NCBI GenBank assembly: GCA_018223105.1
Contig: JAAEYY010000010.1
Coordinates: forward strand, 9,199 to 73,198
Direction: 5' to 3'
DNA: 64,000 nt
Source: a bacterium
GTDB lineage: Bacteria; Bacteroidota; Bacteroidia; NS11-12g; UBA9320
Part shown: positions 43,264-62,437 of the stretch, piece after piece
Layout: each line of letters starts with the position of its first letter
How positions within the stretch are numbered: position 1 is the first letter of the stretch
The notes under the pieces: generated by a model
Told to the model about the DNA's origin: nothing
The model's input: only the letters and a program-made list of their open reading frames with translations
Database searches by the model: none
Position numbers and translations under genes: made by a program

Positions 43264-43739
43264 TCTAATGTTTTAAGGTAGGCCCATACAAGGTCTGGTT
43301 CGTAGCCTTTGGTAATTACAAATCGCGCAGCTTTACTTCTCCTCTCATAGATATTGGCAGCTTTCGCCTTTTCAAAGGCTTTAAAACTGAGCTCTTCCAG
43401 TTTCTCCATGTAGGCATTTTCATCAATTTCTTCCATGCCCTTTTTTATGTTATAAGGGCTGATATCATTGCGAGACAAAACTTGATTAATTTTAATTTTT
43501 CCCCAGTTATTATGCAAAAACTTCCCTCTACATAGTGCTTGAGCATAACGAGTTTCATTAAGGTAATTCCACTCTATAAGTTGTACCAACATTTCATCTG
43601 CTTCCTGGTAAGAGGCTCCCATTTCTATCATCTTGCTACGCACCTCTTTATGGCAACGCTCACGGTAAGCACAAAACTTCAGGATTCTCTCTTTGCGTTC
43701 TGTGCGACTCAATTTTTTTGTTCCCGGCTCCATCTGCAT
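43260..43739 (-). CDS. recX: Regulatory protein RecX
   Basis: 159 residues, all-helical, with tandem three-helix repeats: AYRERCHKEVRSKMIEMGASYQEADEMLVQLIEWNYLNETRYAQALCR and KIKINQVLSRNDISPYNIKKGMEEI. RecX binds RecA filaments and limits recombination. It precedes the PLP enzyme gene with a 4-base overlap. Its promoter region overlaps the start of the divergent murF/alr gene. Confidence 0.88.
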   Translation of the reverse strand: MQMEPGTKKLSRTERKERILKFCAYRERCHKEVRSKMIEMGASYQEADEMLVQLIEWNYLNETRYAQALCRGKFLHNNWGKIKINQVLSRNDISPYNIKKGMEEIDENAYMEKLEELSFKAFEKAKAANIYERRSKAARFVITKGYEPDLVWAYLKTLE

Positions 43740-43758
43740 GAGAAGTCTGCAATATATC

Positions 43759-43777
43759 TAATTTTGCATCAAATGTA
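43759..43777. promoter_or_regulatory. Overlapping divergent -7 boxes of recX and murF/alr
   Basis: TAATTTTG (plus, 43759-43766) ends 6 nt before the murF/alr ATG. TACATTTG (minus, 43777-43770) lies 30 nt before the recX ATG and overlaps that same murF/alr ATG. Both fit TAnnTTTG. Each RNA polymerase would block the other; -33 boxes are not obvious. Confidence 0.45.
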
Positions 43778-46208
43778 TACCGCGGGAGATATCGCTAAAA
43801 TTGTAAATGGAACTCTCGTAGGAGATGCGGGAATTCACATCAAATCTCTCGCTTTTGATAGCCGTAAAATTGGCCGACCCGCAGAAACCTTGTTTTTTGC
43901 CATTCGGTCTCAACATGCCGATGGACACAAATACCTCAATGAGGTGAAAGCAGCCGGAATCGCTGCTGTTGTTGTAGACCACGATCCGGAAATTGATGGT
44001 TTAAACTATATCCGAGTTCAAGATACCTTAGCCGCCTTGCAAACCTTGGCGAAAGATCATCGAAATCGCTTTGATCTAAAAGTCGTTGGTATTACCGGAA
44101 GCAACGGGAAAACCATAGTAAAAGAATGGATATATCATCTTGCTGCTTCCACTTTTAATACTGTTAAAAACCCTAAAAGCTATAACTCTCAAATTGGAGT
44201 ACCGTTCTCCATCTGGAATATTAAAAAAGAGCATAAACTTGGGATTTTTGAGGCGGGAATATCGCAGCCGGGAGAAATGTCCCGACTCGAACAAATTATT
44301 CAGCCTCATATTGGTATTTTTACCTATTTGGGTGATGCGCATAATGCTAATTTCAAATCTGACGAGGAGAAATTAGAGGAGAAACTGCAGCTCTTTGATC
44401 ATTGCGAAACAGTAATTTGTCCGGCAAACCAAACTTTAGCACTGCAAAAGCTTAGAGAAAAAGGTTTAAACGTCTTAACCTGGAGCGATAAAGAAACTGC
44501 TCAACTTCAGGTTTTGAATGTGCAAAAAGAGAAATCGGAAACTCGAGTTCAATTATTATATCGAGGCAGCGGAATTACTTTCGACCTAGATCTGCCGTTT
44601 TCTGATGACAGTTCAATACACAATGCCTTAAGCGCTTCACTTTGCGCATTGCATCTGGGTGTTTCGGTTGAGGAATTACGTTCTAAAGCAAAATCACTGC
44701 AAGCCATAGACATGCGGCTTCAGCAAGTTCCGGGAATCAATCAAAACCATCTGGTTTTAGACTTCTACAACTCCGACATGGAGAGTTTGAAAATTGCTTT
44801 AGACTTCCTCAAACAACAACAGGGAGATAAAAAAGCAGTGATCATTTTGTCTGATATCTTACAGTCAGGGTTGGATGAAACAAGTATTGTTAAAGACATT
44901 CAAAAGCTGCTGAAGGAATATTCAGTTAAGAAACTCATCGCTATAGGGAATCAATTCAAGCAATTACAAGCAGACCATTATGAAATTGAGGTTTTTGAGG
45001 ATACCGATGATTTTTTAAATCGTTTTCCGTTATACACCTTGCACGATGATTTCATATTATTAAAAGGAGCGAGGCCCTTCAAGTTTGAAAAGATCGCTGA
45101 TCGGTTGAGCGCTAAAGTACATCAAACCGTGCTGGAGGTGAACATGACCCAATTACAGTTGAACCTCAAACTTCATCAAGCTCAAAGTGGTCCGAATACC
45201 AAGACCATGGCCATGGTAAAAGCTTTTGCCTATGGTGTTGGGGGATATGAAGTTGCCAAGTTGATGGAGTATAATAAGGTGGATTACCTTGGAGTAGCGT
45301 ATTTAGATGAAGCCATAAGCCTCAGGGAGTCGGGAATTCATGCTCCGATTATGATTCTCAACGCCGATTTCAGCAAAGCGAGCACCATAAGTGAATATCA
45401 GGTGGAACCGACAGTGTATTCACTGGAATCTTTAAGTGATTTAATTCGCTACGGGGATGGATTACCTATTACCATTCACCTCGAGTTTGACACCGGAATG
45501 CATAGGCTCGGTTTTACTGATGAAGACCTTGAAGCGCTCATTAAAATCTTGCATCAACATGAAAACCTAAAGCCTGCCTCGGTATACAGTCATTTAGCCG
45601 TGGCAGATGATTCAAGTCAAGATGAGTTTACTTTATCACAATACAAACGATTCTCTTTAATCGCAAAAAGAATAAAACAAGAGTTTGGTGAAGAGGTACT
45701 AAGCCATATTTCCAACTCTTCCGGCATTCAGCGCTTTCCGGAGTTCGACTTAGATATGGTGCGATTGGGCATTGGTTTATATGGAATTTCCTCGGATCCC
45801 GAAATCGGTGAGAAGCTCGATAATGTAGTGACCTTTAAAAGCTATATCGCTCAAATCAGGATAGTAAAAGCGGGAGAAGGTATAGGTTACGGACTGCATA
45901 GCAAATCAGACCGGGATAGAAAAATTGCAGTGGTTGCTGTGGGCTACGCCGATGGTTATAGCAGAGATTACAGTCAGGGGAAAGGATATTTTCTCATCAA
46001 CAATAAAAAAGCAGAAGTCACGGGAAATGTGTGCATGGATATGACCATGTGCGATGTGACAGATATCGATTGCAAAGCCGGAGATGAAGTCATTATTTTT
46101 GGCGAGCATCCTTCGATAGAAGAGTTGGCCAAGATTCAAAACACAATTCCGTACGAAGTTTTATCGGCGGTGAGCCAGAGAGTGAATAGAGTATTTTATC
46201 AGGAGTAA
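43773..46208 (+). CDS. Bifunctional MurF ligase / alanine racemase
   Basis: 811 residues. Residues 1-~450 are MurF-like (UDP-MurNAc-tripeptide:D-Ala-D-Ala ligase) with ATP loop GITGSNGKT (to ~114). Residues ~455-811 are alanine racemase with PLP Lys483 (MVKAFAYG), HLEFDTGMHRLG, SNSSG and the catalytic-Tyr segment GIGYGLHS. The fusion is characteristic of Bacteroidota and couples D-Ala supply with its ligation to peptidoglycan precursor. The frame stays open back to 43539, but the domain begins at ATG 43773, which I chose. Confidence 0.95.
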   Translation: MYTAGDIAKIVNGTLVGDAGIHIKSLAFDSRKIGRPAETLFFAIRSQHADGHKYLNEVKAAGIAAVVVDHDPEIDGLNYIRVQDTLAALQTLAKDHRNRFDLKVVGITGSNGKTIVKEWIYHLAASTFNTVKNPKSYNSQIGVPFSIWNIKKEHKLGIFEAGISQPGEMSRLEQIIQPHIGIFTYLGDAHNANFKSDEEKLEEKLQLFDHCETVICPANQTLALQKLREKGLNVLTWSDKETAQLQVLNVQKEKSETRVQLLYRGSGITFDLDLPFSDDSSIHNALSASLCALHLGVSVEELRSKAKSLQAIDMRLQQVPGINQNHLVLDFYNSDMESLKIALDFLKQQQGDKKAVIILSDILQSGLDETSIVKDIQKLLKEYSVKKLIAIGNQFKQLQADHYEIEVFEDTDDFLNRFPLYTLHDDFILLKGARPFKFEKIADRLSAKVHQTVLEVNMTQLQLNLKLHQAQSGPNTKTMAMVKAFAYGVGGYEVAKLMEYNKVDYLGVAYLDEAISLRESGIHAPIMILNADFSKASTISEYQVEPTVYSLESLSDLIRYGDGLPITIHLEFDTGMHRLGFTDEDLEALIKILHQHENLKPASVYSHLAVADDSSQDEFTLSQYKRFSLIAKRIKQEFGEEVLSHISNSSGIQRFPEFDLDMVRLGIGLYGISSDPEIGEKLDNVVTFKSYIAQIRIVKAGEGIGYGLHSKSDRDRKIAVVAVGYADGYSRDYSQGKGYFLINNKKAEVTGNVCMDMTMCDVTDIDCKAGDEVIIFGEHPSIEELAKIQNTIPYEVLSAVSQRVNRVFYQE

Positions 46209-52486: not shown

Positions 52487-52626
52487 CGTGCGCACAATTC
52501 CTATCAACGTTGCATTTTGCTATAACGTGTCCGGAGACGTTAAGGTTTTGGGTCGATGGGAAGTTCTATCCTAAATGTAGACCCCACACCCTCTTCCGAC
52601 TCAAAACTTATACTCCCTTTATGATC
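52487..52626. repeat. 140-bp direct repeat, copy 1
   Basis: Identical to 53790-53929 except for two bases, offset 1303 bp. It covers the last ~28 codons of a histidine kinase (minus strand) plus 53 bp after its stop. The non-coding end includes palindromes GTGCGCAC and TAACGTGTCC/GGAGACGTTA. Confidence 0.97.
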
Positions 52627-52632
52627 TTCCAT
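52540..52632 (-). pseudogene. Histidine-kinase 3' fragment, copy 1
   Basis: About 30 codons ([18 protein letters not shown] and [11 protein letters not shown]) match the C-terminal end of a HATPase domain. The same end is at 53843 and a paralogous one is in the complete kinase at 58012. The upstream side joins the outer-membrane-barrel fragment 12-17 bp away. Confidence 0.85.
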
Positions 52633-53789: not shown

Positions 53790-53929
53790 CGTGCGCACAA
53801 TTCCTATCAACGTTGCATTTTGCTATAACGTGTCCGGAGACGTTAAGGTTTTGGGTCGATGGGAAGTTCTATCCTAAATGTTGACCCCACACCCTCTTCC
53901 GACTCAAAACTTATATTCCCTTTATGATC
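53790..53929. repeat. 140-bp direct repeat, copy 2
   Basis: Copy of 52487-52626 with two mismatches. It includes the end of a histidine-kinase fragment and the same palindromic non-coding tail. Confidence 0.97.
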
Positions 53930-54067
53930 CTCTATAATTGCATACGAAATAGACAAGCCCAGCCCGGTACCTTTACCCACCGGTTTGGAAGTATAAAAAG
54001 GCTCGAATATTTTGTTTTGGATATCTTTGATTTTATTAAATGACAAAAATTCTAATTTAGACCGCAA
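53843..54067 (-). pseudogene. Histidine-kinase 3' fragment, copy 2
   Basis: 74 codons. From about codon 15 it matches the G2 box/ATP-lid region and end of a HATPase domain ([20 protein letters not shown] and [10 protein letters not shown]), near-identical in protein to residues ~640-698 of the complete kinase at 58012. The first ~15 codons are unrelated, so the junction is near 54045. His and N boxes are missing, so it cannot function. Confidence 0.85.
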
Positions 54068-54119: not shown

Positions 54120-54608
54120 ATGAATAATGATTCCAACTTAAATCTTAGTACCGAACTTCAACATGGAATATCGGTAGATGACATCAAAGGCCTTCAAGTC
54201 TTGGTACTGCCCGAAAATTTCAACAGTGTATCTGACAAAGAAAGTTTGATTGAGGCTTCTGACTCTTTGAACATAAGTAAGATCTTTAAAGAGGAAGGTA
54301 TTAAATGCGCGAATGCGTTTGACCTAGGACTGGATGTTCCAGCTTTAGAGCGAAGAGGTTCGGATATTTGGTTGGGTCAAATCTTTATCATAGATAATGT
54401 TGCATTACCTCTTGTTATCAATGTCTTGACAGCTTTTATTCAAGACAAAATTTCTAAGAAGTCAAAGAAAAATGCCAATGTAGCACCAGAAAGGAAAGTG
54501 CATTTGGAGTTGAAAATGCATAAAAATGGCAACATTAATAAACTGAAGTATCACGGCGACTCCAAGACATTACTCAAAGTGTTACAAAACTTGAAAAATG
54601 ATGATTGA
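54120..54608 (+). CDS. Unknown protein, first gene of a two-gene cassette
   Basis: 162 residues with no signal peptide. The N-terminal half is charged; a hydrophobic helix (IFIIDNVALPLVINVLTAFIQDKI, ~residues 88-112) separates it from a short C-terminal beta domain (VHLELKMHKNGNINKLKYHGDSKTLLKVLQNL). This layout recalls small partner proteins of bacterial conflict systems, but I cannot assign a family. It overlaps the next gene by 11 bases, indicating translational coupling. Confidence 0.6.
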   Translation: MNNDSNLNLSTELQHGISVDDIKGLQVLVLPENFNSVSDKESLIEASDSLNISKIFKEEGIKCANAFDLGLDVPALERRGSDIWLGQIFIIDNVALPLVINVLTAFIQDKISKKSKKNANVAPERKVHLELKMHKNGNINKLKYHGDSKTLLKVLQNLKNDD

Positions 54609-55308
54609 GAATGTAGAAATAGACAATAAAGACTATCTCTCACAAGCCGAAAACCTAATTCAACAATGGTATGATTTTATTCAGAAAAGAAAATTGGATA
54701 AGGCGATTGCCATATGCAAAAGTTTAATACAATCTTACAAACAAATACTAAAAAACCGAGATTGGCCAAAAGCAACTGAAAACGATTATAATAACTTTCT
54801 AATTTTAGCAATCACCTTTAAAGCATTCGAAGACTATGCAGAGTTGGGAAAGATAATAACACAAGCTAAATGGGATCAAAATAACTCCAACCTTGAGGCA
54901 GTTTGGTTAAAGTTATGGGACTCTAAAGACAGACTTGATTCTGTAAGAGGTAGAATTCAGTCTGATATTGTTGAAAGAATTTACAGTAACCTTGAGGACT
55001 TATTAGATCAATATAGACAAAACTTTGGAAATGGTCTTTATGCAAGTCCAGAGATTCTAATAAAGAAGGAAACATGTTCTATTTGCAAAAATGATATTAG
55101 GGCTTGTTCGCATATTAAAGGTAGATGGTATGATGGACATATTTGTCGTGGAATTGCAGAAGATATTGAGTTAAAGACAATTTCTCTAGTAACTGTTCCA
55201 AAAGACCCTAGGTGTAGAATGTGGCCTTGGCGCGAGAGGGAAGATAGGGTTTTTGAAATGGTAGTGTTGACTTTATTTCAGGTAGACAACTTTTTAATTG
55301 ATGACTAA
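54598..55308 (+). CDS. Unknown protein with Cys/His putative zinc site, second gene of the cassette
   Basis: 236 residues (ATG 54598 or 54601). Residues 1-150 are helical. Near the C-terminus are Cys160, Cys163, Cys170, His172 and Cys183 in the order CxxC..D.R.C.H..G..Y.G..C, a probable metal site, followed by LKTISLVTVPKDPRCRMWPW. No family is assigned. Low GC, coupling to the upstream gene and flanking attC-like sites suggest a mobile two-gene module. Confidence 0.65.
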   Translation: MMIENVEIDNKDYLSQAENLIQQWYDFIQKRKLDKAIAICKSLIQSYKQILKNRDWPKATENDYNNFLILAITFKAFEDYAELGKIITQAKWDQNNSNLEAVWLKLWDSKDRLDSVRGRIQSDIVERIYSNLEDLLDQYRQNFGNGLYASPEILIKKETCSICKNDIRACSHIKGRWYDGHICRGIAEDIELKTISLVTVPKDPRCRMWPWREREDRVFEMVVLTLFQVDNFLIDD

Positions 55309-55320
55309 AAAAACCGGTGC

Positions 55321-55446
55321 TAACAGTGTATATAAAAAATAGGTGAAATAATAGTAATATCAAGTCTTTTAGCACGTTTCACACACTTTATGCATAGCCA
55401 ACATTTTGGTGTTTCAGAATCGCCTACTTTTCATATATTAAACGTT
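55321..55446. other. attC-like element after the two-gene cassette
   Basis: It begins TAACAGTGTATATAAAAAATAGG and ends with CCTACTTTTCATATATTAAACGTT. The arms are imperfectly complementary (outer AAC/GTT, TATAT and TAGG/CCTA blocks), starting 12 bp after the stop at 55308. It is long (126 bp), with an internal asymmetric centre, as many attC sites are. Confidence 0.4.
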
Positions 55447-55455
55447 GACATATAT

Positions 55456-56334
55456 TTAAAGTGAATAGTTTAATAATAAACGATCAGAGACCAATTCAGA
55501 CTCCAAAGTTTGACCCTCCATTTGGAATCTTCTTAACATAGAGCGGCCGACAGATACGAACATTTCTTCCTCAAAAAGACCCGGTGGTATTGGCAAATCA
55601 CATAAATAATTTCCTGACTTTTTATTTCCATCAATACTAAGTGCGACACGAACACCTTTTGATTTGGCATGATCTATTGACTCCAAAAGCTCTTCAAGTT
55701 TGAATGACTGCGCTCCGTATAAAATACTCTGACTATGACTGTATGGTGGGTCACAGTAAATCAAATCTCCGGTTTGGGCCATATCAAAAATCTCCTTGTA
55801 GTCAACATTCAAGAAAGTAACGTTTTTCATTCTTATAGACCATTCTTTGACTCTTTTTCGAAATGTTTCAACGGGTATTGGTTTGTGTACGCCACAAGGT
55901 GTACTCATATATCCATCTGCTTTTCTAAACCTGACAATTCCACCATAGCATGAACGGGTCAAATACAGAAAGTCTGCTCCATTATGTTTTGAATTAAAAG
56001 ATGCCAAAACGCTATTATAAACCTCTTTTTTGTCCTCGGTATCAAGCCTGTTACGCCTTTCTGCATACCATTCTATTAGTTCTTCTGGGTCGTCCTTTAG
56101 CTTTTGCCATATTTCGACCAAAGGAGCGAATATATCAGAACCAACTCCTGCAATTGGAGCAACAGTTGCCAAAACTGCACCACTTCCTAAAAACGGTTCA
56201 TAGAAAGTTCCGAAGTCTGGAGGAAAACACTTAGTTATTTCACCTGCGAATTTTTGCTTGTTTCCAACCCATTTTAACAATTGAGATTTGGGAGGTGTGT
56301 ATGTAGGGAACTTTGAATCCGTAGAAAATTGCAT
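55456..56334 (-). CDS. DNA adenine methylase, D12 class (type II RM)
   Basis: 292 residues. Motif I FYEPFLGSGAV (44-54) and the catalytic DPPY (195-198) give the alpha order of D12-class N6-adenine methyltransferases (Dam, DpnM, EcoRV type). KWVGNKQKFAGEI is the N-terminal SAM-binding start. It should protect host DNA from the endonuclease encoded on the other side of the operator. The recognition site cannot be read from sequence. Confidence 0.93.
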   Translation of the reverse strand: MQFSTDSKFPTYTPPKSQLLKWVGNKQKFAGEITKCFPPDFGTFYEPFLGSGAVLATVAPIAGVGSDIFAPLVEIWQKLKDDPEELIEWYAERRNRLDTEDKKEVYNSVLASFNSKHNGADFLYLTRSCYGGIVRFRKADGYMSTPCGVHKPIPVETFRKRVKEWSIRMKNVTFLNVDYKEIFDMAQTGDLIYCDPPYSHSQSILYGAQSFKLEELLESIDHAKSKGVRVALSIDGNKKSGNYLCDLPIPPGLFEEEMFVSVGRSMLRRFQMEGQTLESELVSDRLLLNYSL

Positions 56335-56373
56335 AGTCTTTAAGTTCTGTCAAATCTAAGACTAATTGTTCGA

Positions 56374-56407
56374 ATATCCTATTTTGGGTTATCCTGAACT
56401 AGGATAT
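56374..56407. promoter_or_regulatory. C-box-like operator between methylase and C/R genes
   Basis: Three half-sites are visible: TATCCT at 56375-56380 and 56390-56395, and AGGATA at 56401-56406. This gives TATCCT-N9-TATCCT-N5-AGGATA, with an outer ATATCCTA/TAGGATAT inverted pair. It lies between divergent genes and just upstream of the HTH regulator, so it is probably bound by it. Confidence 0.55.
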
Positions 56408-56418
56408 ATTTTGGTGGC

Positions 56419-56670
56419 TTGAAAAAGACTATTCATAGTAGAGAATACAGAGTTCTACTTGAAACCCTTTACAGTTTAAGGGTTGGCAACAACTTACTTC
56501 AATCTCAACTAGCAGAGAAACTAGATGTTCCACAATCATTTATAAGTAAAATAGAAAGTGGCGAGAGACGAATTGATGTAGTTGAATTAAAGGAAATAGT
56601 TGAATCTATGAAAACCAGTTTACCCGAATTCATTAAAGAGTACATAAAAAGATTGGATGCTACCGAATGA
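56419..56670 (+). CDS. XRE-family HTH regulator (restriction-modification controller-like)
   Basis: 83 residues starting at TTG 56419 (no suitable ATG). The HTH is at residues ~27-60 ([27 protein letters not shown]), the layout and size of C proteins that control RM systems. It overlaps the endonuclease gene by 14 bases, so it is likely to delay or set endonuclease expression through the operator upstream. Confidence 0.88.
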
Positions 56671-57523
56671 CAAATACAAAGAACTTGGCTTAGAGTTTTG
56701 GGCAAATATCAAATTGCTTAACCAGAGATTGGGTTATGCAGAAAGAAGAACTAGTAAGAATCCTAATCCCGGCTTTGTAGTTCCTACTGTTGAGCAAATT
56801 CTTCAAGTTTTTAAAGACGAAGGGTTAAATCCTGAAAGACTTGTAAATGATAATGAACTGACTGAGTTAGGCCTCCTTCTCCAAGAATATATGCAATACA
56901 GGGGTGATGTTTTGACCAACGACGTTGAACCAAACCTCATGAATAAGGATCAAGCTAAAGACCTATTTGAGACCAAAAGAGCAGAGTTAAACCCAAATTG
57001 TCCACTACCAATGAATAAGCAAAAGGGAGAAAAACGAGATCACGCTTTTTTAACTGGATTAGTCAACATGCTAGTTGAAGCAAACAAAGGAAATTGTGAT
57101 TGTGACTATGACCCAAGAGAATTAACTGCGTTGACAATTGACAAATTCCCTGTAAGAACTCTATCTAGGCGAGTTGACGGAGCATTCCCAAATATTGTTG
57201 ATCCAAAAGCAATTTGGGAAATTAAAGAATACTACTACACAACAACATTCGGAAGTCGGGTTGCAGACGGAGTTTATGAAACTCAATTAGACGGATGGGA
57301 ACTTTGGGAAGCAAAGACTAATCTTGGAAGGGAAATCAATCATTATTTGATAGTTGACGATTATTTCACTTGGTGGACGTGTGGTCGCTCTTATCTCTGT
57401 CGCCTTTTAGATTCAATGCACATGGGGCTAGTTACTGAAGTGATTTTTGGGAAAGAAGTCACAAGGAGGATTCCCGCTTTAGTTAAAGAATGGACGGAGT
57501 GTGAAAATTGTCAAGATAAATAA
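56657..57523 (+). CDS. Probable type II restriction endonuclease
   Basis: 288 residues. A PD-(D/E)xK-like core is seen: Asp174 ([10 protein letters not shown]), Asp182 and Glu188-Ile-Lys190 (IWEIKEYY). The rest matches no family I can name. The context with the D12 methylase and C-like regulator makes restriction endonuclease the most likely role. The start at 56657 is inside the regulator gene. It could be solitary (no second subunit). Confidence 0.75.
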
Positions 57524-57630
57524 ACGGTAGTTGATGAATCCTAATCTACCACTTATGTAATCGACATATCTTTATGTACTTGGAATAAGTAAAAGTTCAT
57601 TAAGTTCGTTTATGTGATTAATGATGATTT

Positions 57631-58029
57631 ATGCAAAAAAACAATATTGAAAATATAGTATCTGTAATTTCAGGAGACTCTGATATTAACTCAATTATTG
57701 TAAAAGGTCATTTACTGTCAAGGGAGTATATAATGAAATATGTTAGAAATAATAACAGCCTTCTCGCATCTAAAACAAAAAAATTGGATTTTGAAACACT
57801 GTTAGCAATGGCAAGAACCGCGGGGGTAGAGAATTCTCTTATTTATAGGTTAGATGTAGTGTTTAAACTTTATAACTCATGTCATTCTCTTGATAATAGT
57901 AAAAAACTTGAATTCAACATATTAATTGAGTGTAATATCCGAAAACTAGGCTCGAATTCAATAACCGATGACATTACCAATTATATTGCACACAATATAT
58001 ACGAACTCCAGCTACTTTGTAATAGGTAG
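57631..58029 (+). CDS. Hypothetical protein
   Basis: 132 residues, Asn/Ser/Leu-rich and mostly helical, with no signal peptide. Low GC like the RM genes. Its last 18 bases overlap the end of the convergent histidine kinase. No family recognised; a cassette-borne or accessory gene is likely. Confidence 0.4.
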   Translation: MQKNNIENIVSVISGDSDINSIIVKGHLLSREYIMKYVRNNNSLLASKTKKLDFETLLAMARTAGVENSLIYRLDVVFKLYNSCHSLDNSKKLEFNILIECNIRKLGSNSITDDITNYIAHNIYELQLLCNR

Positions 58030-60108
58030 TTCAATTCTGAACAGCGAACCTTCTCCTTCTTTAGATTCAAAGTTTATTACGCCATTGTGATCTTCAATAA
58101 TTGCATAAGATATTGATAGGCCTAATCCTGTTCCTTTGCCTACTGGCTTAGATGTATAAAAAGGCTCAAAAACTTTCGACTGAATATTTTCTGGAATCCC
58201 ATTGCCATTATCTCGCACTTTTATAACTATACAATCATCCTCTAGAATCGAGGAAACGTCTATTTCTGCTTTAGAAATGTCTGATGAATGCCTGTCTTCT
58301 ACCGCATGAATAGCATTATTTAGAAGATTTAGAAATACTTGATTCAATTTACCTAGTTGACATTGAATATCCGGAATATTTTCGTCTAAACTCAGATTTA
58401 CTTTTATTGAGTTCAACTCATTTTTAAGTATAGCTAATGTAGATTTCAGTCCTTTGTTAATATTAGCTTGTTGACTAGCACCAGAATCACTTCTACTGAA
58501 TGTTCTTAACCCTTCAACTATATTATATGTTCTTTTAGCACCTTCCTCAATTCCATCAATTAATTCATCAGTTTCTTTTAGTGTGTAGTCCAGTTCAATT
58601 TCATCCTCGTAAGCTTCAATTTTCTTCATTTCAGACTCTTGATCTTCAACACTTGGTAAAGCTTTATATCGACTCAATAGTTCACTTATTATCTCAATAT
58701 TCTCGCGTAATGGTATGACATTCGCAGTGACATAATTAATAGGATTATTAATTTCATGGGCTATACCAGCGGTAAGAACACCCAGACTTGCCATTTTCTC
58801 AGATTCAATTAATTTCACTTGTGCTTTTTTCAAGTCTTCCAGAGTTTTCTCTAGCTCTTCCGTTCTCTGCTTTACCTTTTCTTCCAAAATCACATTTTGA
58901 TTTTTTATTAGGTTCTCATTTCGTGCTAACTCTTCTATAACCCGCTCTTGAGCTTCATCAGTTTCTTTGCGAAGGGTATTTATTCTATCAGCTAATGCCA
59001 CTGAAATTAGAATTGTTTCAACAGCAATCCCAATAGGTAAACTGAATATCGATAGGTTGTTCGTAGGGATTATTCCTGAGTCTTTCATTACATAAAAAAT
59101 TAAGCCTACAATTAATAAAGACCATGAAAGAAGATATATTTTGGCACTCCTTACTCCTTTAAGTGAAAGCAGTAAACTTGTAAGTAATATTACCATTGCA
59201 CCATACAATCCTGAAAGTTGTATCAGTTGATAAGATATGTTAAGCAAACCTAAAAAATAGGTGACTGCTACTATAGAATATAAGAAGATTAGAATAATGT
59301 ATAAGATGTAATAAATCTTCTTCAACCGTTCTCTAATTTTAAGAAAATTTAGGGCAAATAGTGCACCGAGAATTCCACTAAAGGAAGAGCCAAGGAACAT
59401 GAAATGATTTGACCATACAGGCCTTATACCTAGCAGATAATAATCAATACCTAGAAAACTGAATTGAGCTAATCCAATGAAAAGTATGTAACCTAAATAG
59501 TACCAGTAGTTTCTGTCATGAGTATAAAATGCAAGTACTAGGTTATATAGGAGCATACATAACATAATACCTGCAAACGCTCCCAGAAAAATATTTCTGA
59601 TAGAAATAAAACTACTATAAGACTCTTCCTCTGCTATTATTAACGGAACTACATAGAATGTCTTAGTACTAACTTTGATAAATACATCAATTTCATCTTT
59701 GCCATTAAAATCTATATCAAAAGTTGGATAAGGGTCTTTATCTGATCTTCGCTCTTTACTTATGTATTTTCCACTAATTTGTTTCACTAATTCTCCTCTG
59801 GATTTAGTATAGGCACTAATTGAATCAAAATAAGGTATTGGTGAGTAAAGCTTGTAATGATTTGTCTCAAAAGGTTTTATCAACTTGAACTTTATAAGAA
59901 CTGAACTGTCACGAGGACCAAGGTCAATTACTGTTGATTCTATCTTTGTAAACTTCAGATTATCAGATGCTTGGTCTTTGAGACTATAGTCATGCGGGAT
60001 AAGGCTATAAGAAACAGACTTCCCATCAATTTGAATTGTACGGTCAATGTTCTGAGCAAACAAATGACTTGACAGGACGATCATTAGGGTTAGTAAAACT
60101 GATTTCAT
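58012..60108 (-). CDS. 7TMR-DISM histidine kinase
   Basis: 698 residues. A signal peptide (to ~19) is followed by a periplasmic 7TMR-DISMED2-like beta domain (~25-165), a seven-helix 7TMR-DISM membrane domain (~170-375), a coiled coil (375-437) and HisKA with phosphoacceptor His451 (GIAHEINNPINY). HATPase_c comes last (DNGNGI ... [14 protein letters not shown]). It has no receiver domain of its own. Its start overlaps the GNAT gene stop by 4 bases. The extracytoplasmic domain suggests it senses a small molecule. The kinase-tail fragments at 52.5 and 53.8 kb derive from a paralogue. Confidence 0.93.
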   Translation of the reverse strand: MKSVLLTLMIVLSSHLFAQNIDRTIQIDGKSVSYSLIPHDYSLKDQASDNLKFTKIESTVIDLGPRDSSVLIKFKLIKPFETNHYKLYSPIPYFDSISAYTKSRGELVKQISGKYISKERRSDKDPYPTFDIDFNGKDEIDVFIKVSTKTFYVVPLIIAEEESYSSFISIRNIFLGAFAGIMLCMLLYNLVLAFYTHDRNYWYYLGYILFIGLAQFSFLGIDYYLLGIRPVWSNHFMFLGSSFSGILGALFALNFLKIRERLKKIYYILYIILIFLYSIVAVTYFLGLLNISYQLIQLSGLYGAMVILLTSLLLSLKGVRSAKIYLLSWSLLIVGLIFYVMKDSGIIPTNNLSIFSLPIGIAVETILISVALADRINTLRKETDEAQERVIEELARNENLIKNQNVILEEKVKQRTEELEKTLEDLKKAQVKLIESEKMASLGVLTAGIAHEINNPINYVTANVIPLRENIEIISELLSRYKALPSVEDQESEMKKIEAYEDEIELDYTLKETDELIDGIEEGAKRTYNIVEGLRTFSRSDSGASQQANINKGLKSTLAILKNELNSIKVNLSLDENIPDIQCQLGKLNQVFLNLLNNAIHAVEDRHSSDISKAEIDVSSILEDDCIVIKVRDNGNGIPENIQSKVFEPFYTSKPVGKGTGLGLSISYAIIEDHNGVINFESKEGEGSLFRIELPITK

Positions 60109-60812
60109 ATCAAATTTTTATAATGAATTAAAACACCACCACGTTTATTTTTTTCAATTTTCGTTTGATTAAAGTTAGCTCTTAAGGTTAGCATCGAGTT
60201 TCTAGCATAGATTGTAGCATACTTTAGAGTCAATAAATCTTCGTGTATCCATAATGCGGAATGGAACCTTTCCACGGGGTATTTGAAAATTCCCTCATTT
60301 CCAATTTCTGTAACCATTCTAAGTCCAAGCTCTCTAGGTATTCTGTATGTGTATACGCCATTAAAGCTCAAAACAGCATCAATCCCCAGTAATGGGGCTA
60401 AAGCAATACTTGCTCTACAGAGAAAGATGGAAATTTCATGCCCCGCTACTTCTCTTGAATTCCATAGACCACATGCTTCATAAATATTAGTATAATTTAG
60501 GGAGTCAAGATAATTGCTAACAATCTGCTTTTCAGATTTTAGAGCCTTTTCTAATGGCAAGTCTTTATCATGAACTTTCTTTTCAAATCGAATACCACCA
60601 ACAGGTACGTTGTTTTTTAGAGCAATAAATGCGTAAGCATCTTCTTGTTTAATCCAATAATCTTCTTTGGAGGTTAAATGTCCAAGACCGTGTTCTTCCA
60701 ACACTTTTTGATGCCCATCAACAAATTTCTCGCAAAATTCAGGATGTTCTATTGGTCTGAATGCAATTATCTCACACTCTAATGCTGTTTTTGATTTATT
60801 CTCTTTAGTCAT
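60105..60812 (-). CDS. GNAT-fold acyltransferase (N-acyl amino acid/autoinducer-synthase-like)
   Basis: 235 residues. The N-terminal third has GNAT-like strand/helix patterns (DYWIKQEDAYAFIALKNNVPVGGIRFEKKV) and a second part with conserved-looking EACGLWNSREVAGHEISIFLCRASIALAPLLGIDAVLSF. The size and layout resemble FeeM/acyl-homoserine-lactone-synthase-like acyltransferases, which make amphiphilic acyl-amines. That is an inference by shape; plain GNAT is the safe call. It is the middle gene of the ThiF-GNAT-kinase operon. Confidence 0.6.
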   Translation of the reverse strand: MTKENKSKTALECEIIAFRPIEHPEFCEKFVDGHQKVLEEHGLGHLTSKEDYWIKQEDAYAFIALKNNVPVGGIRFEKKVHDKDLPLEKALKSEKQIVSNYLDSLNYTNIYEACGLWNSREVAGHEISIFLCRASIALAPLLGIDAVLSFNGVYTYRIPRELGLRMVTEIGNEGIFKYPVERFHSALWIHEDLLTLKYATIYARNSMLTLRANFNQTKIEKNKRGGVLIHYKNLI

Positions 60813-60821
60813 TAATTACCT

Positions 60822-61877
60822 TCAACTCAATTGAATAAAACAACCAGATTCTATATCACCTTTAAATAAAATGTTCTGAATGTAATTAGAGACAAATCCT
60901 GCCCCCAAATAAATCTCCGAAGCCAGTTGTGGCCAGCTACGGGTTTGGGTACCAAAGCCCGGCATGGAGCGTTTCATGCCCTCTGAAACAGCATCTATAT
61001 CAATAATTTGTGAGAGAAATTGTACTTTTTCTTCCATGGTTAAATCTCGTTTTATATCAGTGTAGTTTGTCACTTTACCGTGGAAGATGGGTCGGTTAGG
61101 CTCCAGATCAAAGCGTTCAATATCAATCTGGCAGCGATCATTGGTTTCCATAATCACCGGTATACCCAGCTTTCGGCAAGCTAAACGCGACTGAATTTTA
61201 ATGTAAATATCGTCGCATTCTTCTACAAAAATATCCAACTTTCTCCCATCGTCTAAAAACTGATCAATATTATCATCAGTTAGGCCTTCGGTGAAGCACT
61301 TTACTTCCAAATAGGGATCCAGCTCTGCTATAGCTCGCGCAGCAGAAATACTTTTATTCTGTCCCAGTTCCTGCAAGCCCCCCGTAATGCGGTTGAGGTT
61401 GGAGAGTTCTATACTGTCAAAATCGGCCAAATAAAAACTGCCGGCTATTCTTTCTGTGGCCAGGCAGAGTGCAACGGCGCGTCCTACCGAGAGTCCTACA
61501 ATGCCCACCCGCTTTTTGCGCAATTCTGCCTGCTCTTCCCGGGTAATTTTCTCGCGGTTTCTATTGGTACGTACCTCTATAAATTCTTCCTCAGTAAGAA
61601 TGTGAACTAAGCGCTCAGCCCAGGGATAATACACCCAATTGCCGATGTCTTTTCCCTCCTCCTCACATTTTTGTTTATATCTTTCCAACTCATTTTCTTC
61701 TTTGAGTTGTTTCGCAGATTTTTGTGGATTTCGGCAGAGTAATAGCTCTGTAATTTGATCCTCGAGCAGATCTAATACCTGTACATTATCCGCCGCCCTC
61801 AATACCTTTAACCGCTCCCTATCCTCCGGTACAGAAGGCTTAAGCAGTTCGGGTCTGTACACCTCAGTTCTATTCAT
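60822..61877 (-). CDS. ThiF-family adenylyltransferase (Rv1355c-like)
   Basis: 351 residues. Residues ~75-110 hold the lead-in WVYYPWAERLVHILTEEEF.EVRTNRNR. The E1-like Rossmann motif GLSVGR (128-133), ADFDSIELSNLNRITGG (151-167) and Lys175 form the ATP/Mg site of ThiF/MoeB/E1 enzymes. No CxxC zinc motifs and no obvious catalytic Cys are seen. Related Rv1355c-type proteins carry a C-terminal nitroreductase-like domain, absent here. It should adenylate a carboxylate (a small protein or a small acid). The ATG at 61877 opens the operon. Confidence 0.82.
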   Translation of the reverse strand: MNRTEVYRPELLKPSVPEDRERLKVLRAADNVQVLDLLEDQITELLLCRNPQKSAKQLKEENELERYKQKCEEEGKDIGNWVYYPWAERLVHILTEEEFIEVRTNRNREKITREEQAELRKKRVGIVGLSVGRAVALCLATERIAGSFYLADFDSIELSNLNRITGGLQELGQNKSISAARAIAELDPYLEVKCFTEGLTDDNIDQFLDDGRKLDIFVEECDDIYIKIQSRLACRKLGIPVIMETNDRCQIDIERFDLEPNRPIFHGKVTNYTDIKRDLTMEEKVQFLSQIIDIDAVSEGMKRSMPGFGTQTRSWPQLASEIYLGAGFVSNYIQNILFKGDIESGCFIQLS

Positions 61878-61914
61878 TCAGGTTCCAAATCTGTACAGAA
61901 AAGTTGAAATAAAA

Positions 61915-61944
61915 TTTGTTTTGAAATAAAAGTTATTAACTTTG
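61915..61944 (+). promoter_or_regulatory. Promoter (TTTG-N18-TAACTTTG) of the receiver gene
   Basis: TTTG at 61915-61918 and TAACTTTG at 61937-61944, spaced 18 bp; the ATG is 25 nt downstream. It lies in the divergent gap with the ThiF gene. Confidence 0.75.
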
Positions 61945-61969
61945 TAATACTACTACAATTACATTAACC

Positions 61970-62437
61970 ATGGAACAATCTAAAAAAATCTCCGTGCTTT
62001 ATGTGGATGATGAAACACCAAATCTCTCCGCTTTTAAAGCCAACTTTCGCAAGCAATTCAATGTACATCTTGCAGAGTCTGTAAACCAGGCCCTTGAAAT
62101 TATGTCTGAAAACGAAGTGGATGTTGTTATTACAGACCATATGATGCCGGGTCGCTCAGGTGTAGACTTATTAGAACAGTTAAAGGAAACTGATCCTTAT
62201 ATCTGTCGTATCCTCATTACCGGTTGCTCAGACATCAACATCGTAATCGAAGCCATTAACCGAGGTGAAGTATTCCGTTTTTTAACCAAACCATGGGTAA
62301 AAGACGTACTTGCAAGCACCATACAGAGTGGTTACGAAAACATGCAGGAAAAGAAGAAAGAGCAACGCCTAAACGACAAATTGCTGGAAACAAATCAGCA
62401 GTTGGAATTTATGCTTCGCCAGAAGTTGATTAGCTAA
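61970..62437 (+). CDS. Single-domain response regulator with C-terminal coiled coil
   Basis: 155 residues. The receiver has acidic pair Asp13-Asp14, phosphoacceptor Asp56 (VVITDHMMP), Thr in ILITG and Lys in FLTKPW. The last ~35 residues are a helical/coiled-coil tail. There is no output domain, so it probably acts by protein binding. It is divergent from the ThiF-GNAT-kinase operon and may be its phosphorylation partner. Confidence 0.9.
   Translation: MEQSKKISVLYVDDETPNLSAFKANFRKQFNVHLAESVNQALEIMSENEVDVVITDHMMPGRSGVDLLEQLKETDPYICRILITGCSDINIVIEAINRGEVFRFLTKPWVKDVLASTIQSGYENMQEKKKEQRLNDKLLETNQQLEFMLRQKLIS

Follow-up and report, generated by a model that had tools for sequence, protein, structure and literature searches.

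The window analysed here, a stretch of 64,000 nucleotides from a genome of the Bacteroidota (contig JAAEYY010000010.1), carries an operon in which genes for a ThiF-type adenylating protein, a GNAT-fold acyltransferase and a 7TMR-DISM membrane sensor histidine kinase are closely packed, divergent from a gene for a stand-alone receiver (Table 1). The original prediction for this DNA held that the two enzymes could make a small molecule which the kinase senses outside the cell, and as an overall interpretation it is supported by the analysis. The four open reading frames (ORFs), the gap of 9 bp between the ThiF and acyltransferase genes and the overlap of 4 bp between the acyltransferase and kinase genes were all recovered when the sequence was re-read, and the short element upstream of the receiver gene is a putative promoter element that may drive its transcription.

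Table 1. Features of the operon and its surroundings in the window
Feature	Position	Strand	Length	Basis or remark
ThiF-type adenylating cyclase	60822-61877	-	351 aa	Pfam, NCBIfam, MoeB alignment
FeeM/LuxI-fold N-acyltransferase (GNAT), predicted amino acid N-acyl synthase	60105-60812	-	235 aa	Predicted structure, Foldseek, hhalign
7TMR-DISM membrane sensor histidine kinase	58012-60108	-	698 aa	Pfam, sensor model, catalytic motifs
Regions of the kinase	DISMED2 sensor, residues ~22-165; 7TM, ~166-390; HisKA/HATPase with H451			
Stand-alone receiver, divergent from the operon	61970-62437	+	155 aa	Pfam Response_reg; conserved beside the operon in relatives
Intergenic region between operon and receiver	61878-61969		92 bp	Sequence reading
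Bacteroidota -7-like element TAACTTTG	61937-61944	+		Sequence reading; putative promoter element
Type II restriction-modification island	54120-58029			Occupies the site of the REC-histidine kinase and small receiver genes of relatives; does not belong to the system

The acyltransferase has no family match in Pfam, NCBIfam or PHROG, and a sequence search of the PDB returned no credible relative, so that comparison of folds was needed. An AlphaFold model built with 61 homologues (mean pLDDT 91) supports the GNAT fold that had been suggested, and the 13 best Foldseek matches in the PDB are all BjaI, FeeM, RpaI or MesI (E ~1e-7, probability 1.0, TMq about 0.48-0.58, 12-15% identity), not unrelated acetyltransferases. 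BjaI, RpaI and MesI are CoA-dependent acyl-homoserine lactone (AHL) synthases, and FeeM is an N-acyl amino acid synthase. As modelled, the protein carries the LuxI/FeeM variant of the GNAT fold and is a predicted amino acid N-acyl synthase; it is not a member of the LuxI family itself, since it has no match to the autoinducer-synthase family in Pfam or NCBIfam. The closest folds to TyzA are likewise FeeM and BjaI (PMC10404671). By hhalign the acyltransferase profile matches, with 93% probability, an uncharacterised protein encoded divergently from an Rv1355c-family gene on a Rhodococcus plasmid. On that plasmid (L222:3991-5726) a GGDEF gene abuts the acyltransferase-like gene, an arrangement that echoes the cyclic di-GMP (c-di-GMP) genes beside trzAS in mycobacteria. 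A neighbouring protein in Mycolicibacterium (L224) was considered as a further relative and showed no relation on comparison.

The ThiF protein matches PF00899 (1e-19) and, far above any other NCBIfam model, the Rv1355c family (3e-120, 402 bits), to whose proteins on Rhodococcus plasmids it is about 40% identical. The Rv1355c-type assignment of the original prediction thus holds at the level of family, but the match covers only model positions 8-330 of 722, the N-terminal half, and falls below the whole-protein cut-off of 476 bits; the window protein ends where the family runs on into a nitroreductase-type oxidase. It is best described, from sequence, as a stand-alone version of the cyclase half of the Rv1355c (TrzS) family, and its adenylation-site residues R163, K175 and D222 are kept in an alignment with MoeB. 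No flavin oxidase is fused to it or lies beside it in the window, and a PF00881 search of the whole genome found only two small nitroreductases (198 and 225 aa), both elsewhere. The protein groups with an oxidase-less neighbour (L047, support 99) as well as with further ThiF proteins of the stand-alone type, and because of this grouping it is not simply truncated; descent from a broken ThiF-oxidase fusion was accordingly set aside as the principal explanation. The oxidase-less form is a natural and common variant, the oxidase being present in 72 of 118 dereplicated ThiF modules. A second ThiF-oxidase paralogue in the same family occurs in another conserved context (L049:7201-9555, L050:7637-9958, L053:7619-9967), which has no acyltransferase or kinase; a possible partner acyltransferase was not found nearby.

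In the kinase, Pfam recognises the 7TMR-DISMED2 domain that had been surmised, together with 7TMR-DISM_7TM, HATPase_c and a weak match to HisKA, and H451 (in HEINNP) and the N and G boxes are intact. A model of the 400-residue sensor region has a pLDDT of 92, and the top Foldseek match to its extracytoplasmic domain is the periplasmic domain of RetS. The next structural matches are to human Wntless, the carrier of a lipid-modified protein; their TM-scores are low (~0.3), so this likeness is a hint only. The receiver, as anticipated, has a Response_reg domain and lacks an output domain, and its phospho-acceptor D56 and K107 are present.

It is clear from comparison with other genomes that these genes travel together. 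Within the window's class, 76 of 395 genomes and 44 of 197 genera carry the acyltransferase according to a profile search. Neighbourhood maps cover 57 readable class loci, which are non-independent through shared ancestry: the DISM kinase adjoins the acyltransferase in 55 of them, a stand-alone receiver accompanies it in 54 (divergent in 47, downstream in 7), and 46 have a REC-kinase. An independent scan of contigs from named Bacteroidota genomes, run with a narrower acyltransferase alignment (A1), placed the kinase beside the acyltransferase in 60 of 62 loci, the carriers including Pedobacter, Arthrospiribacter, Salibacter, Fluviicola and many uncultured Bacteroidota; in a phylum-wide draw 13 of 396 genomes had the acyltransferase, and a single one of these belonged to another class. 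Adjacency of the three genes, on which the original prediction depended, is therefore found in nearly every relative, with synthase and sensor genes linked across taxa, and its conservation in well over 100 loci places the arrangement far beyond chance. The order is kept over about 20 families with differing flanks, which is strong evidence for a functional unit. In several genomes of the window's own family the receiver is divergent from ThiF, which is followed by the acyltransferase, the kinase, a REC-histidine kinase and a small receiver; the unit of three genes and receiver that had been proposed is thus conserved, but the full module in relatives adds two signalling genes that are absent in the window. 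The neighbourhood maps show no conserved transporter or immunity gene in the module. In one locus (L048:4909-6015) the downstream REC-histidine kinase has lost its H-box histidine (SNEMRS vs SHDLRS), and such proteins may act only as receivers or ATP-binding partners in some lineages. Three modules (L090:6526-7976, L260 and L236) carry two acyltransferase genes, which suggests either that one kinase reads two acylated products or that the gene was duplicated recently.

The constant part of the module is the acyltransferase, the kinase and the receivers, and the second enzyme varies. Among 145 dereplicated modules it is a ThiF-oxidase in 72, ThiF alone in 46, a class I S-adenosylmethionine-dependent (soluble) methyltransferase in 9, an ICMT-like membrane methyltransferase in 6 and an FAD-binding flavoprotein in 1, with none adjacent in 11. 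The carboxylate is the target of both ThiF adenylation and ICMT-type methylation in known relatives, and by analogy the soluble methyltransferase may act on it as well. A rule by which the carboxylate is in every case the target of the second enzyme is weakened by modules with the acyltransferase only and by two (L275:7078-8685 and L238:4431-6008) in which an FAD_binding_4 flavoprotein of about 530 aa, possibly another tailoring step, lies between acyltransferase and kinase.

The type of second enzyme agrees far more closely with the phylogeny of the sensor region than with the phylogenies of the kinase core and the acyltransferase. On the tree of sensor and 7TM region all nine methyltransferase modules fall into a single clade (support 99.8), and their monophyly is rejected for the kinase core (approximately unbiased test, p-AU 3e-10) and for the acyltransferase (p-AU 1e-83). 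In a sliding-window analysis the number of changes needed between ThiF and other enzymes is 6-7 for sensor windows, 12 for the acyltransferase and 14-18 for windows past residue 400, and the association spans kinase residues 65-398, with a sharp loss near 400 at the boundary of sensor and kinase. When equal numbers of columns were resampled the ranges were non-overlapping (5-9 for the sensor, 12-13 for the acyltransferase and 14-18 for the core), and acyltransferase and sensor still correlate in their pairwise distances once kinase core and receiver have been removed (partial r 0.41, p 0.002).

Taken with the biochemistry of the relatives, these patterns point to a plausible route from synthesis to sensing. 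TrzS/TrzA (Rv1355c/Rv1356c) and TyzACB make N-acyl oxazolones, built in the characterised relatives from aromatic amino acids (PMC10404671, PMC12856293), and this literature, which the original prediction did not cite, backs its guess of carboxylate activation combined with acyl-amine synthesis. Oxazolones are labile compounds (PMC12856293). Judging by its fold, the acyltransferase would join a fatty acyl group from acyl-CoA or acyl carrier protein to an amino acid, which is probably aromatic by analogy with the Tyz, Trz and Oxz relatives. The ThiF protein, from its homology and active-site residues, would then adenylate the carboxylate and close a neutral 2-alkyl-oxazolone; in relatives the fused oxidase then desaturates it, and because the window protein is without that half, any oxazolone it made would stay in the saturated form. 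Where a module has a methyltransferase in place of ThiF, that enzyme probably masks the same acid. The amphiphilic product would reach the periplasm or membrane, where the co-transcribed kinase would bind it through its RetS-like domain and 7TM region. The kinase, as its motifs and the conserved linkage suggest, would alter phosphorylation of the divergent receiver and, in relatives, may also target the REC-histidine kinase and another receiver. We consider it somewhat probable that the operon is the window's copy of such a make-and-sense module, in which the kinase detects the N-acyl amino acid derivative that the enzymes encoded beside it produce, and propose that synthase and sensor kinase operate in the manner of a quorum-sensing pair. 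The chances are about even that it belongs to a widespread new signalling family of the Bacteroidota, in which a LuxI-fold acyltransferase, an exchangeable head-group enzyme and a matching 7TMR-DISM sensor yield chemically distinct types (oxazolone, dehydro-oxazolone, methyl ester or free acid) on one chassis.

Several observations weigh against this interpretation. In about 11 of the 145 modules the acyltransferase has no second enzyme next to it, the presence or absence of the oxidase is predicted no better by the sensor than by the acyltransferase, and modules of the ICMT type form no cluster on the sensor tree. Physical linkage plays a part in the co-segregation, because in the methyltransferase modules the end of the kinase gene that codes for the sensor lies directly beside the methyltransferase gene. 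The window copy itself may be re-wired or reduced, since it is without the two downstream signalling genes present in relatives.

The kinase might instead sense an unrelated envelope or stress cue and only switch on the synthesis of a membrane lipid, an antibiotic or a protective compound. Sub-inhibitory antibiotics induce oxazolone production in several proteobacteria and the tyz genes of Mycobacterium tuberculosis are linked to oxidative stress (PMC12856293), and operon linkage alone fits either direction of information flow. This explanation is nevertheless unlikely: the type of second enzyme follows the sensor region and not the kinase core or the acyltransferase, as is expected if the sensor reads the product, and, as noted above, conserved transporter or immunity genes are lacking from the module.

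It is improbable that the product is something other than an oxazolone, with ThiF activating the carboxylate of an N-acyl amino acid for another nucleophile to give an amide, ester or thioester that serves as signal or metabolite. The usual oxidase is missing in the window, and no oxazolone was found for stieleriacines, kyonggic or thalassotalic acids despite ThiF genes in their clusters (PMC12479983), but the closest relatives with a characterised function, TyzB and TrzS, act as cyclases (PMC10404671, PMC12856293).

The state of the window copy bears on a further doubtful possibility, that the operon is a decaying remnant which may no longer work after losing its oxidase, REC-kinase and small receiver and gaining a restriction-modification island. 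The island was placed by comparison with the loci of relatives (L041-L048). Neither the REC-kinase nor the small receiver is in its usual place, and the rest of the genome yielded no close copy of them, nor any good copy of the REC-kinase, an absence that is not certain because the genome is about 90% complete. The GC content steps at the ThiF/GNAT junction, from 43% in ThiF to 33-35% in GNAT and kinase, and a decayed fragment (53843-54067) with about 70% DNA identity to the 3' end of the operon kinase lies nearby. Yet the remaining ORFs are all intact with their catalytic residues, the oxidase-less ThiF belongs to a common type, and the downstream signalling genes are missing in several relatives as well (for example L090, L157 and L182).

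The restriction-modification set itself (55456-57523) is complete, with a Dam-like methyltransferase, a control protein (56419-56670) and a REase_II-type DUF7690/DUF7687 protein, and is accompanied by uncharacterised ORFs (54120-55308 and 57631-58029). A 146-bp direct repeat (97%; 52487-52632 and 53790-53935) encodes the last residues of a histidine kinase, its second copy belonging to the decayed fragment. Further away, an 889-aa ORF (43539-46208) reads from its sequence as a Mur ligase-type domain apparently fused to an alanine racemase-type domain.

An operon that joins probable genes for synthesis of a fatty-acyl amino acid to a sensor kinase and its receiver, and that recurs across many Bacteroidota, looks like an undescribed chemical signalling system, possibly for quorum sensing. 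To our knowledge no acyl-type quorum-sensing system native to the Bacteroidota has been established. By linking a sensor kinase with an acyltransferase of LuxI fold and a cyclase of the oxazolone type, the operon makes both acyl signalling in this phylum and the role of oxazolones testable, and Pedobacter, Salibacter and Arthrospiribacter are culturable carriers for such tests. Head-group enzyme and sensor region are swapped as a pair, which suggests that the system diversifies its chemical dialect. The authors of the Tyz, Trz and Oxz studies note the likeness of the products to signalling molecules (PMC10404671, PMC12856293), and the physiological role of acyl oxazolones has been called a major unresolved question (PMC12856293).

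A search of freely accessible literature for links between oxazolone/ThiF genes or acyltransferases and 7TMR-DISM kinases or quorum sensing in Bacteroidota returned nothing relevant; an earlier mention in subscription journals is possible. Among the systems that can be compared, trzAS (Rv1356c-Rv1355c), which makes N-acyl tryptazolone in mycobacteria and rhodococci, has a ThiF domain in the same NCBIfam family and an adjacent FeeM-like N-acyltransferase, and its actinobacterial loci adjoin genes for c-di-GMP turnover. TrzS, however, is fused to a flavin oxidase that the window protein is without, the acyltransferases are only remotely similar (the hhalign match above), and the trz locus has no histidine kinase or receiver. 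The tyzACB genes of M. tuberculosis and oxzAB of Pseudoalteromonas rubra, which yield acyl tyrazolones and phenazolones, follow the same logic of N-acyltransferase and ThiF cyclase (with a flavin-dependent oxidase, FDO, in some), but their ThiF proteins fall in a sub-cluster other than that of TrzS and no linked sensor kinase is reported. By the criterion of the oxidase, the window copy is not a complete oxazolone cluster. The stieleriacine and thalassotalic acid clusters combine an N-acyl amino acid synthase with ThiF, a nitroreductase and, in Stieleria, a methyltransferase, but they are reported from Planctomycetota and Pseudomonadota, and the text of that study that was searched mentions no two-component genes (PMC12479983). 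RetS and other 7TMR-DISM kinases share with the window kinase the DISMED2 domain, the 7TM region and HisKA/HATPase, although the window kinase, unlike RetS, is not a hybrid and is encoded with a biosynthetic pair. The LuxI-type AHL synthases share their fold with the window acyltransferase and, like it, are encoded alongside a dedicated sensor. LuxI/LuxR is such a cognate pair, and LuxM/LuxN and CqsA/CqsS use kinases; the window system differs from the LuxI type in that its sensor is a 7TMR-DISM kinase and in carrying an extra, exchangeable tailoring enzyme.

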